This document shows positions 30,440 to 34,931 of a stretch of DNA of 64,000 bases, piece by piece. The number at the start of each line of letters is the position of its first letter. The first letter of the stretch is position 1. Position numbers and translations under genes: made by a program. The notes beneath the pieces are model-generated. The model had not been told where the DNA came from. It ran no database searches and saw only the letters and a list, made by a program, of their open reading frames with translations. Source of the stretch: Nitrososphaerota archaeon (lineage in GTDB: Archaea; Thermoproteota; Nitrososphaeria; Nitrososphaerales; Gagatemarchaeaceae); assembly GCA_027887045.1 (NCBI GenBank), contig JAPCJH010000002.1:446723-510722 (forward strand), given 5' to 3'.

Positions 30440-31048
30440 TCAGGATGAAGACAACACAGTCACGCGTCTACGCAACTTATTCACCGCGTCCTTGCTTTGG
30501 ATCATCACTGCCCCGTTTGCTTTCATCTCCTGGATGGCCTGGGCAGAGTCACCCTTTCTGACTTCGACTCCCTTGATACAATCTTTCAGAATCATCACCT
30601 CAAAGCCGTCATGCAGTGCATCGAGAACGGTGTTCTTCACGCAATAGTCTGTCGCCAACCCTCCCACGATGACCCTGGTCACGCGGAGCGCCTTGAGTCT
30701 GGCAGAAAGGTCGGTCCCGTCGAACCCTGAATAGGCTTCTTTGTCGGCTTTCGTTGCCTTGCTGATAATCGTGGCATCTGCTGGGACACGAAGGTTCGTG
30801 TGAAACTTTGCCCCCTTGGTCTCCCTCACACAGTGTGGAGGCCAAATCCCTCCCTGCTCATGAAAGGAGCAATGATCCGCGGGATGCCAATCCCTGGTAA
30901 AGAATATCGGTAACCCTTCGCTTTCAAATCGTTCGATCATCGCGTTGATGTGACCGACCACTTTGTCCCCATGCTTCACTGAAAGCGATCCGCCGGGGCA
31001 AAAATCGTTCTGGACATCGACCACCACGAGCGCGAGGTTGGTCATCAT
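30440..31048 (-). CDS. pncA: nicotinamidase
   Basis: The 202-residue cysteine hydrolase of the isochorismatase-like superfamily converts nicotinamide to nicotinate. Motifs: VVDVQNDFCPGGSL with the catalytic Asp, FTRDWHPADHCSF with metal-binding Asp/His/His, the catalytic-Lys region SKATKADKEAYSGF, and GLATDYCVKNT with the nucleophilic Cys. The start overlaps the stop of the nicotinate phosphoribosyltransferase gene (TAATG), so the genes are translationally coupled in one salvage operon. Confidence 0.95.
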   Translation of the reverse strand: MMTNLALVVVDVQNDFCPGGSLSVKHGDKVVGHINAMIERFESEGLPIFFTRDWHPADHCSFHEQGGIWPPHCVRETKGAKFHTNLRVPADATIISKATKADKEAYSGFDGTDLSARLKALRVTRVIVGGLATDYCVKNTVLDALHDGFEVMILKDCIKGVEVRKGDSAQAIQEMKANGAVMIQSKDAVNKLRRRVTVLSSS

Positions 31049-32271
31049 TAACCTCGTTTCAGGGTCGGAGCTGCTCCCTGGAGCTGGCGCAGATCCTTTT
31101 GCACCCGGGTTCTGATTGATTCTATCCCTTCATACTTCCTGGTTATCCTGCCTCTTAACATCAAGGGGCTCAGGAGGGTCCTGGTCCCTGATGGGCCTCG
31201 GTTCCCCTGCAGCGTGACGACGTCGTTGAACCCCACTCGGGATCTGTAGACGGCCTTTCTTCCGCCGAGCCCTCCTCGCTTTGCCCTGAAGTACGTCCGA
31301 CCTCCTTCCTTTACTTCGACGATCTTTGCGCTCAGGTCGATTACGGGCGGGTACGCTACGGACGTCCCTACGCCAAAGCCGTCCACAAGTTCTCTCAATT
31401 CGCTGATGCTCGTTTCGTCGAGCCGTCCGGAGGCGATGAGTTTCACATGGTTTCCTCCTCTGATATCGAGTTCCCAGCGGACCTCTTCGATGATCTTCCT
31501 AAAGTTTCCCCGTCGCGAAGACGGGGTGTCGAGTCTAACCCCCCAGAGGTTCTTACCCAGTACCTCGAACGCCCTGATCGCCTCGGTTTTTTCATCCCAG
31601 AAAGTGTCAACCAGAGGTATCCTGGGCTGGTCCCTCGACACCGTCTTGTCGAAAAGTCCCCACGCCTTTTCCTGATCCCCTATTATCTGCACCAAGGCGT
31701 GCGGCATCGTTCCCGACGCCTTCAGGCCCAGGAGCTCAGCACCCAGGACGTTAGATACCCCATCGAAACCTGCCAGGTAGCAAGCCCGCTCTACCATCGG
31801 AGCAAGAGCCGGGTGCACTCGGCGAGTTCCAAAGCTCATTAGAAGCTTGTCCCCCGCTGAAACCCTGAATCGAGCCGCCCTCGTCGATATGCTTGTAGAA
31901 GATGTGAGGAGACCGAGGAGCGCCGTCTCGTATTCGGCGAAGGCCTCGTACTTCCCAGCGATCACCAGCAGGGGTTCGTAAAGGGCCGTGGTTGCATCTG
32001 CGAGGAAGACAGATCCCTCGTCAAATGCCCAGACGTCGACGGGGATACCTTCAAGGAGTTTGGCGACCTCGTAGACACCCGTCAAAACCCCCCAATTCTG
32101 CGGGTACGGGAGGTCCCTTGCGTAGACCTCCATAACGACTTCTGAATGAATCTTGTTCTTCCTTAGAACCTCTTTCGTGTTGACGAAATATTTGTCGGTC
32201 GTCTTCCCGCTCTTTATCTCCGATTCCTTCGCTAGCCAGAACTCTCGATCGGGGAGGTCAAAGTGCGCCAT
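31048..32271 (-). CDS. pncB: nicotinate phosphoribosyltransferase
   Basis: The protein matches archaeal/bacterial nicotinate phosphoribosyltransferase: EIKSGKTTDKYF near the N-terminus, GVYEVAKLLEG, SFGTRRVHPALAPM with the catalytic-site His, and LDTPSSRRGN and ASGRLDE at the type II PRTase barrel. It joins nicotinate to PRPP giving nicotinate mononucleotide. The frame extends to a TTG at 32301, but the TATA-like gataactttt lies directly there, so ATG 32271 is preferred. It is first in the operon with nicotinamidase and divergent from NAD synthetase. Confidence 0.92.
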   Translation of the reverse strand: MAHFDLPDREFWLAKESEIKSGKTTDKYFVNTKEVLRKNKIHSEVVMEVYARDLPYPQNWGVLTGVYEVAKLLEGIPVDVWAFDEGSVFLADATTALYEPLLVIAGKYEAFAEYETALLGLLTSSTSISTRAARFRVSAGDKLLMSFGTRRVHPALAPMVERACYLAGFDGVSNVLGAELLGLKASGTMPHALVQIIGDQEKAWGLFDKTVSRDQPRIPLVDTFWDEKTEAIRAFEVLGKNLWGVRLDTPSSRRGNFRKIIEEVRWELDIRGGNHVKLIASGRLDETSISELRELVDGFGVGTSVAYPPVIDLSAKIVEVKEGGRTYFRAKRGGLGGRKAVYRSRVGFNDVVTLQGNRGPSGTRTLLSPLMLRGRITRKYEGIESIRTRVQKDLRQLQGAAPTLKRG

Positions 32272-32336
32272 TCTAAGTTGCGCCTCTGGGAAGGTCGGCA
32301 AAAAGTTATCTGTGTGGTGACTTCGGAACGGCGAAC

Positions 32337-33113
32337 TTGCTGAAACAGGATATTAACATGACCCAGGCAAAACGGAAAATCGTCGCTTTCATCAAGCAGA
32401 AGGTCAGGGATTCCAAGACCGACGGAGTTGTTTTGGGGCTGAGCGGGAGCATAGACTCGGCGGTTACAGCCTACTTGTCGGTTGAAGCTCTCGGCAACAG
32501 AAGGGTCCACGGACTCGTGCTTCCAGACCAGCGAGTCACGCCGGAGAGCGACATTTCTGACGCGAAAGTGGTTGCTGAGGAGCTCTGCATCGAGACGAGG
32601 CTAATTGACATCGCTCCTATTCACCGAGCGTTCATGAAGAATCTTGCCGCCGATAAACTGGCGGAGGGAAATCTCCAAGACAGGATTCGGATGTCCATAA
32701 TCTATTACCGCGCGAACTCGATGAACAGACTTGTTGCGGGGACGGGAGACAAATCCGAACTCAGTTTGGGTCACTTCACGAAATACGGCGACAGCGGAGT
32801 CGACATCTTGCCAATCGGCGACCTGTACAAGACGGAAGTGCGACGGCTGGGCGAAGCACTCGGGATAAGCAGACGGATCATATCGAAGAGAATCAGCCCC
32901 TGGTTGTGGCAGGGACGAACAGTAGAGGGCGAGCTGGGTCTAACCGACGACGTCATCGACGAGATCCTCAAGCTCTATTTCGAAGAGAGGCTGAGCCCCA
33001 AGAGCATCTCCTCGCGCATTAAACTGGATGCAAACGTCGTTGAACGGATTTTGACAAGGTGCAGAGAGAGTGCGCACAAAAGAGAATCGCCAGAAATCTG
33101 CAAGATTCGTTAA
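32337..33113 (+). CDS. nadE: NAD+ synthetase, ammonia- or glutamine-dependent core
   Basis: The 258-residue N-type ATP-pyrophosphatase has the PP-loop LGLSGSIDSAV, RVTPESDISDA, and the NAD-specific GTGDKSELSLGHFTKYGD with adjacent DILPIGDLYKTEVRRL. It amidates deamido-NAD. No glutaminase domain is attached. TTG 32337 is about 30 bases after aaagttatc, suggesting a leaderless message; ATG 32358 is the alternative. With the divergent pncB-pncA operon it completes most of the nicotinamide-to-NAD route; the adenylyltransferase step is not in the window. A tRNA-Ala gene follows. Confidence 0.95.
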   Translation: MLKQDINMTQAKRKIVAFIKQKVRDSKTDGVVLGLSGSIDSAVTAYLSVEALGNRRVHGLVLPDQRVTPESDISDAKVVAEELCIETRLIDIAPIHRAFMKNLAADKLAEGNLQDRIRMSIIYYRANSMNRLVAGTGDKSELSLGHFTKYGDSGVDILPIGDLYKTEVRRLGEALGISRRIISKRISPWLWQGRTVEGELGLTDDVIDEILKLYFEERLSPKSISSRIKLDANVVERILTRCRESAHKRESPEICKIR

Positions 33114-33642: not shown

Positions 33643-34152
33643 CTACGCCCAGATGGGCCTGTAGGCTAACAGTGTCTCGGTTGATCTCACGCCTTGCAGT
33701 TCGCCTATCTTCGAAATCTGTGAAAGAACATCGTCTTGGTTCTTTCCGTATACGGTCGCCAGAATGTCGAATTCGCCCGGTACGACGGATGCATTGCGGA
33801 CTTGTGAGTGCTGTTCTAGTGATTGGAGGACCTTCTGCGCATTGTCGTTGACTTGCAACAGACATAGTGCAAGAGCATCAGTTGGCTGAACGTTCTTGCC
33901 GTTTGCAAAGCCTTCGAAAGGCGTGTAGGTTCTTGTTGAGGTGACCCCGCTCAGGGATCGGACTTTGTTGACCCATTCATAGACCTGCTTTTGGTCTGCG
34001 GCCTTGAACTCGATCGCTAGATCGAATCTGCCGGTTATGGGTGAGAAGTAGGTGATTCCTGGGAAGTGCCTTAGTTGCTCAGTTACTGAGTTGAGCATCT
34101 TAGGCTGAACAGATGCGATGATGGTGGTTGGATTCATGTTTGTGGATATCAT
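33643..34152 (-). CDS. tandem Lrp/AsnC ligand-binding (RAM) domain protein
   Basis: The 169-residue protein has two ferredoxin-like halves resembling the ligand-sensing RAM domain of Lrp/AsnC regulators: PTTIIASVQPKMLNSVTEQL with FPGITYFSPITGRFDLAIEF, and then ALALCLLQVNDNAQKVLQSL with SVVPGEFDILATVYG and SKIGELQGVRST. No helix-turn-helix is present, so DNA binding would need a partner. ATG 34152 lies 29 bases from a symmetric TATA box shared with the divergent gene at 34221. It may sense amino acids and modulate another regulator. Confidence 0.8.
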   Translation of the reverse strand: MISTNMNPTTIIASVQPKMLNSVTEQLRHFPGITYFSPITGRFDLAIEFKAADQKQVYEWVNKVRSLSGVTSTRTYTPFEGFANGKNVQPTDALALCLLQVNDNAQKVLQSLEQHSQVRNASVVPGEFDILATVYGKNQDDVLSQISKIGELQGVRSTETLLAYRPIWA

Positions 34153-34164
34153 TGTATTTCAAAA

Positions 34165-34221
34165 TGTCATACTTATGACACTATATAGGTCTATCTATTT
34201 GTTGATGTCACACTTATTACA
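34165..34221. promoter_or_regulatory. divergent promoter with one symmetric TATA box between two palindromes
   Basis: The TATA element is the perfect palindrome CTATATAG (34181-34188), placed 29 bases from the minus-strand start codon and 33 from the plus-strand one, so it can serve both directions. TGTCATACTTATGACA (34165-34180) and the weaker TGTCACACTTATTACA (34206-34221) flank it, 41 bases apart, about four helical turns. They are probable operator sites for a dimeric regulator acting on both genes. Confidence 0.75.
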
Positions 34222-34931
34222 TGCATTCCGGAAGATTGCGGGTGGCAAACAAGAGGACACCCTCTCAAGGGAACAGAGTTTCGGTGAGCGAAGCCGTATC
34301 GAAGATCATCTTGGGGAACTACGTGGTGCATGAGTCATTGAAGCTCAGGATAGTCAATTATCACGGATTAGCGGGCAAGATTTCGTCTGAGGTGGAGGGA
34401 CTGACCGGGAAGAAAGCAAAGATGGATACGATAGTGGTGGCGATCAAGCGATTCTCTGATGGCTTGGGTGAGGGCAAGATCGAGGAGATGTCCGCCAGCC
34501 TGAAGGACTCCAAACTTGATCTCGAGGGTGGCGTGGTCGACGTGACGATCGCGGGGAAGGATACAAAGGCTCAACAGATTCTGGAAGATGTCCTGAGGTT
34601 GCAACCCAAGTTCAGCGGCACCCCAAACGTCATCCAACTGCCTAGTTCGGTCAAGATAATAGCCGAGGAGAAGGACGCGAAACTTCTCGAGGAGGCTCTC
34701 TGGGGACGCTACGAAACATCGCTCAAGCGAAACGTCGCCAAGATCACCATCCGCCTGTCGCCTTCCAGGGAGAAGGTGCCTGGAATCGCGGCGTTCATCA
34801 CGGAACTGCTTTACAGGAATGGCGTGAGCATCCTCGACGCGTTTTTGAGCGACGAAGATGTAATGTTAATCGTTCAAGAGAAGTTCAGCCCCAAGGCCTA
34901 CCAAGTCCTGAGCGAAGAGATTTCAGGTTAG
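34221..34931 (+). CDS. ACT-like regulatory domain protein
   Basis: The 236-residue protein has an N-terminal helical region (VSEAVSKIILGNYVVHESL) and LRIVNYHGLAGKISSEVEGLTGK. C-terminal ferredoxin-like strands (AKITIRLSPSREKVPGIAAFITELLYRNG and VSILDAFLSDEDVMLIV) are typical of ACT-type domains in archaeal regulators. ATG 34221 follows the symmetric TATA box; GTG 34281 with aagggaac upstream is an alternative. Divergent from the Lrp-like gene with shared operators. Ligand and role unknown. Confidence 0.7.
   Translation: MHSGRLRVANKRTPSQGNRVSVSEAVSKIILGNYVVHESLKLRIVNYHGLAGKISSEVEGLTGKKAKMDTIVVAIKRFSDGLGEGKIEEMSASLKDSKLDLEGGVVDVTIAGKDTKAQQILEDVLRLQPKFSGTPNVIQLPSSVKIIAEEKDAKLLEEALWGRYETSLKRNVAKITIRLSPSREKVPGIAAFITELLYRNGVSILDAFLSDEDVMLIVQEKFSPKAYQVLSEEISG

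Follow-up and report, generated by a model that had tools for sequence, protein, structure and literature searches.

Dedicated heat shock regulators of archaea have been described only in certain Euryarchaeota, with Phr and HSR1 as the known cases, while regulation in Crenarchaeota has remained elusive, as far as the available portions of two accounts go (PMC10653856, PMC9133787). Phr of Pyrococcus furiosus is autoregulated, and its site overlaps the hsp20 core promoter and blocks the recruitment of RNA polymerase; HSR1 of Archaeoglobus fulgidus is likewise autoregulatory, with a palindrome upstream of its own gene and hsp20 in the operon (available text of PMC9133787). In the part of PMC10653856 that is accessible, neither regulon includes thermosome genes. 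As to promoters read in two directions, the PF1918 promoter of P. furiosus has a near-symmetric TATA box and yields transcripts both ways in vitro, with starts 49 bp apart (excerpt of PMC6640164). A promoter motif associated with copper limitation in thaumarchaea, TTCSGSMTTTGWACYANT, is given in the accessible text of PMC7785015. Our searches of the open-access literature found no thaumarchaeal heat shock data and no description of the operator reported here or of its ACT-domain protein as a regulator; the available sections of PMC5069720 and PMC6593220 do not mention the genes involved.

Here, we analyzed a 64,000-nucleotide stretch of a genome from the order Nitrososphaerales (the window), in which a symmetric TATA box flanked by two palindromes separates a divergent pair of genes encoding an Lrp-like and an ACT-domain protein. 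The comparisons below point to a gene control circuit of ammonia-oxidizing archaea and related lineages that has not been described before. We consider it probable that the palindromes form a double operator, that the ACT protein binds it as an autorepressor, and that the regulon consists of the ACT gene, Hsp20 or thermosome genes, and the Lrp-like gene.

The arrangement resembles that of Phr in that an operator lies at the presumed regulator's own gene and at an hsp20 gene, a likeness that here is known from sequence alone. This feature of the Phr/HSR1 type, with a divergent Hsp20 gene beside the ACT gene, was found in 80 of 80 named loci (80 of the 156 confirmed loci were examined) but not in the window, where the partner is the Lrp-like gene. 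The Phr site is a 29-bp element with TTTA, TGGTAA, and AAAA, whereas the generalized operator consensus here reads TGTMATANNTATKACA; unlike in the Phr system, some thermosome genes carry the operator, and the protein has tandem ACT domains. The HSR1 palindrome CTAAC-N5-GTTAG (accessible text of PMC9133787) does not match TGTMATANNTATKACA. In the HSR1 operon hsp20 lies downstream, whereas here it is divergent. HSR1 is also a different type of protein from the ACT protein, and the helix-turn-helix (HTH) family known from the Phr/HSR1 type was not found in ACT protein orthologs. Because both operator and protein type differ, we do not claim membership in the Phr/HSR1 type. The copper limitation motif TTCSGSMTTTGWACYANT differs from the operator as well. 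The predicted starts in the window would be about 50 bp apart, as in PF1918. However, the available part of that study (PMC6640164) mentions no operator and considers the second PF1918 transcript a nonfunctional antisense RNA, whereas both directions here read conserved genes.

The promoter region in the window

The Lrp-like gene (positions 33643 to 34152, minus strand; 169 amino acids) and the ACT-domain gene (34221 to 34931, plus strand) diverge from a short region that holds both palindromes and the TATA box, three elements to which no strand applies. Operator site 1, TGTCATACTTATGACA (34165 to 34180), is a perfect 7+7 palindrome around a two-base center (14 of 16 letters self-complementary) and is conserved in orthologous promoters. 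It directly abuts the symmetric TATA box CTATATAG (34181 to 34188), which is probably bidirectional. Operator site 2, TGTCACACTTATTACA (34206 to 34221), follows 41 bases after site 1 and is a weaker copy of it, with 10 of 16 letters self-complementary. The original prediction of a symmetric TATA box with two palindromes 41 bases apart can be read directly in the sequence, except that site 2 is only an imperfect palindrome.

Archaeal transcription starts about 22 to 27 bases from the TATA center, and the predicted starts are at about 34210 for the ACT gene, inside site 2, and at about 34160 for the Lrp-like gene, just past site 1. Site 1 accordingly sits between the TATA box and the predicted Lrp-like start, at a position that would also be that of the BRE in the ACT promoter. 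Site 2 had been placed between the TATA box and a start codon; although it overlaps the ATG at 34221, the orthologs in L018 and L019 suggest the GTG at 34242 as the true ACT start. What site 2 covers is therefore more likely the start of transcription than that of translation. In the window's lineage, two putative regulon members, the Lrp-like and ACT genes, share one operator pair.

The pattern TGTCANACTTATKACA has two exact matches in the window, against 0.10 expected in shuffled sequences, and also matches site 1 on the other strand with two mismatches. In the window's own assembly (1,195,339 bases, 55.6% complete), exact matches occur at this locus only. With up to three mismatches there were 11+7 matches, compared with 11+8 for a backwards control; near matches in the assembly are at chance level. 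An Rfam search of the window returned two tRNAs and nothing else. To the left of the element (30440 to 33113), an NAD synthase gene stands next to two genes that we judged by eye to be nicotinamidase-like and nicotinate phosphoribosyltransferase-like, apparently an NAD salvage cluster.

Distribution of the palindromes across the order

Next to a TATA box, the palindrome, searched as GTMATNNNNATKACN{1,4}TATATA, was present in 150 of the 300 genomes searched from the order, usually about once per genome, and in 121 of the 197 good genomes. The backwards control of this generalized motif matched only a handful of the 300. When 250 genomes of the phylum were searched, 3 of the 211 outside the order matched, about as many as with the control. 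Chance repeats were ruled out by the shuffles together with the counts in the own assembly, across the order, and outside it. Random abundance of the palindrome had been named in advance as grounds for refutation, and these searches did not refute the prediction.

Among the matches listed, leaving aside those found later in family f8, we counted 122 places. At 109 of them the motif lay 58 to 118 bases upstream of an ACT ortholog, in identical orientation in all but one (108/109). Eleven of the other 13 were at Hsp20, thermosome, Lrp-like, or further ACT promoters; of the remaining two, one (G079) was at no regulon promoter and one (G219:C6:160) was left out of the inspection. The 12 places in family f8 comprised nine at Hsp20 genes, one at none of the regulon genes, and two at contig ends that run into Hsp20-like starts (recognized by eye only). 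A further set of 30 loci, corresponding to 26 distinct places, had 24 at Hsp20 genes. Places with no regulon gene at the motif were found in G079, G093 (contig C28), and G054. This distribution identifies the two palindromes as a putative operator pair of a small regulon, conserved in the whole order.

The repeats adjoin the TATA box and the expected start site, as they would if they were core promoter features (BRE or initiator variants) or products of chance and no operator at all. A core element, however, would be expected at many genes. We rejected this reading as scarcely credible because a genome typically has about one copy of the motif, which recurs at a small set of gene families, and because it is missing from other Hsp20 and thermosome paralogs of those genomes.

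Relatives of the ACT gene, including a distant paralog family, were detected in 54 of 61 genomes at an E value of ≤0.001 and in 272 of 300 genomes of the order at ≤1e-8. The order of palindrome, TATA box, and second palindrome is kept upstream of orthologs even at 25 to 38% protein identity. The divergent neighbor varies: it is the Lrp-like gene in close relatives of the window, a thermosome gene in G039, G011, and G015, and an Hsp20 gene in G045, G059, and G057. G059 and G045 are close to Nitrosarchaeum and Nitrosopumilus, and the named loci match the G059 protein at up to 90%. Of the 80 named loci, 79 have a palindrome matching at least 10 of 12 letters in the 200 bases that precede the ACT gene, compared with 45 of 2,853 control windows. 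We also inspected nine ACT promoters from the 49 genomes that have the ACT gene but not the strict motif. Five of these (in G014, G006, G016, G020, and G019) had a relaxed pair 39 to 40 bases apart around the TATA box, and two (in G029 and at the second ACT gene of G013) had one relaxed site only; the promoter in G004 was doubtful, and that in G001 had no site.

For the second site, the best match fell at a spacing of 38 to 41 bases in 23 of 68 nonredundant promoters, where about 4 were expected (binomial P = 2e-11). The mean score profile over spacing was flat across the 68 promoters, so the second site must be weak or absent in many of them; it is clear in Lrp-like promoters and in the promoters of the window's relatives. 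The original idea of one regulator acting through two sites on one shared TATA box is well supported by the finding that the pair, the TATA box, and the 38- to 41-base spacing recur across the order, even with a different gene next to them.

G052 (loci L028 and L352) carries two ACT genes with a motif at each. This genome is 91% complete, and no thermosome gene (Cpn60_TCP1) was found in it; one was found in all 18 others searched. In G019, locus L355 (C68, 38977 to 40268) is a second divergent ACT and Lrp-like pair with a perfect palindrome of its own, TGTTATACATATAACA, and is possibly a paralogous circuit.

The ACT protein as candidate binder

Presence of the ACT gene, defined by an E value of ≤1e-28 or by a g14 ortholog, was compared with presence of the motif in the 300 genomes. 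Both occurred in 143 genomes, the ACT gene alone in 49, the motif alone in 7, and neither in 101; the Fisher P value for this co-occurrence ignores shared ancestry, which inflates its significance, and some truncated genes may be misfiled. G286 and G147, in which the ACT gene is cut by contig ends, were counted as having it. The contrast nevertheless recurs at genus level: in g39, 5 of the 6 genomes that have the ACT gene carry the motif, as against none of the 12 that lack it. A search with the protein of G043 located the ACT gene in 11 genomes of genus g14 and a fragment of it in G147; in this genus it is unlinked to the motif-bearing Hsp20 genes, and its own promoters have relaxed sites or none. 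That Hsp20 keeps the motif there although the ACT gene is unlinked argues for action in trans.

Given that the ACT gene tracks the operator and that the Lrp-like protein is absent from several carriers, the ACT protein is the best candidate binder and most likely acts on both sites as an autorepressor. An unlikely but substantial alternative is that another, unlinked transcription factor binds and that the ACT gene is only one target, encoding, for example, a cofactor or a metabolic sensor. The ACT protein has no secure DNA-binding fold, and the motif persists at Hsp20 genes without a detected intact ACT ortholog in G110 and in four genomes of genus g30 (G182, G192, G202, and G225). Motifs at unrelated places, again with no detected intact ortholog, were found in G054 and G079. 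Against an unlinked factor, the ACT gene and the motif go together both across families and within g39 (5/6 versus 0/12), no other gene is found behind the operator as often, and 101 of the 108 genomes without the ACT gene also lack the motif, even though general regulators should have been retained in them. G182 contains, at C217 positions 213 to 638 (L305), an ACT-like match with four internal stop codons, possibly a decayed regulator gene.

Lrp proteins commonly control their own genes as well as divergent ones, and the adjacency of the two genes in the window would suit a binder of this family, the Lrp-like protein itself or another Lrp/AsnC protein. The Lrp-like protein matches AsnC_trans_reg in two stretches (Pfam, 67.8 bits against a cutoff of 25), and its first RAM domain begins at residue 14; an N-terminal HTH was not found, in agreement with the original statement that it lacks a DNA-binding domain. 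At an E value of ≤1e-20, it had no ortholog in 14 of 24 genomes searched, and motif carriers without one include G003, G039, G059, G045, and G082. We rejected the Lrp-like protein as the binder on its phyletic pattern and missing HTH. An Lrp-family binder, which the original prediction had put forward for binding tests, now appears highly improbable, as the operator carriers G059 and G045 (Nitrosopumilus type) have no match to the Lrp-like protein.

The ACT protein matches PF13840 (ACT_7) at 31.3 bits against a cutoff of 27. Its AlphaFold model has a helical N-terminal domain followed by tandem ACT domains. Residues about 98 to 235 are predicted to adopt the fold of the aspartokinase regulatory domain (Foldseek E of about 1e-8), which likewise consists of tandem ACT domains; unlike aspartate kinase, the ACT protein has no kinase domain and carries the helical domain instead. 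Modeled alone, the N-terminal domain has five helices (pLDDT 87), and it is the most conserved part of the protein. A Pfam search of 17 ACT orthologs returned ACT_7 and DUF7523 but no HTH family, apart from a stray FUR match (E = 0.17). The DUF7523 match was weak and present in 12 of the 17 (best E of 6e-6; residues 35 to 94, window positions 34323 to 34502), and this family may share the head domain of the ACT protein. The N-terminal domain alone had no Foldseek match at an E value of ≤0.001 and no credible match in a sequence profile search of the PDB. VIA-align gave weak matches, with the GlnRS tRNA-binding domain in the top row (Z = 5.5) and the DNA-binding domains of Rok (Z = 3.6) and DEK (Z = 3.4) below it. 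Failure to find a known fold in this way is no proof that there is none. As no secure fold match was obtained, DNA binding by this domain is something that we infer. No relatives of the ACT protein were found in viral contigs.

The mechanism that we propose is as follows. Sites 1 and 2, separated by about four turns of the helix and facing the same side of the DNA, would be occupied by two dimers or one tetramer of one regulator. The protein would thus flank the single TATA box, from which the Lrp-like gene would be transcribed to the left and the ACT gene to the right. The bound regulator would cover the TFB-side flank, the landing zone of RNA polymerase, and both expected starts. Occupancy would shut both genes, and signal-driven release would open both. 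The ACT protein would be the autorepressor: its helical N-terminal domain would contact the DNA, and a small molecule, possibly an amino acid, would be sensed through the tandem ACT domains. Over the order as a whole, this operator would serve ACT, Hsp20 or thermosome, and Lrp-like genes. More tentatively, and with slightly less than even confidence, we suggest that a tandem-ACT protein with a new DNA-binding head is the order's autorepressor and chaperone regulator; it would clamp the TATA box between sites four turns apart, tie Hsp20 or thermosome expression to a metabolite and not to temperature, and have been rewired from chaperones to an Lrp-like sensor in the window's lineage. With an operator and a candidate binder in Nitrosopumilus-type archaea, chaperone control becomes testable in abundant, cultivated organisms, and a symmetric TATA box framed by two sites offers a clean test case for two-way control of archaeal promoters.

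Regulon members away from the ACT gene

Lrp-like orthologs were examined for sites of their own at 12 loci. Genes unlinked to the ACT gene in G015, G013, G065, and G011 (C51) have a palindrome near the TATA box, as does the Lrp-like gene of G052, which is convergent with the ACT gene. A second site lies 40 bases away in G013 and G065, and a weaker one at the same distance in G011 (C51). The second Lrp-like copy of G011 has a weak site (9/12), and the G062 promoter did not rise above its local background (10% of control windows were equally good). The Lrp-like gene on contig C68 of G019 has a perfect palindrome in common with an ACT paralog. Since most unlinked Lrp-like genes have sites of their own, the Lrp-like gene appears to be a regulon member in its own right.

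At chaperone genes, sites are restricted to particular members. We scanned the promoters of 60 Hsp20 and thermosome loci, one of which (L258) had no upstream sequence. Sites matching at least 10 of 12 letters in the expected placement were found at an Hsp20 gene of G003, downstream of the ACT gene and with two sites 40 bases apart, and at thermosome genes of G082, G062, and G015. A 10/12 match also precedes the Hsp20 gene of G062 (L223), at a distance of 387 bases. Since so few of the 60 loci carry sites in the expected placement, we rejected the idea that all Hsp20 and thermosome genes have a general chaperone operator. In the lineage of the window itself, the scanned promoters of both gene types had no sites, so the circuit there seems confined to the ACT and Lrp-like genes.

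The motif was also found at Hsp20 paralogs in L095, L102, L104, L273, L277, L280 to L283, L286 to L289, and L291. In the first three of these, near positions 1501 to 1575, an extra palindrome resembling TGTCATTTTTATGACA lies about 57 bases from the first, and these promoters perhaps hold three sites.
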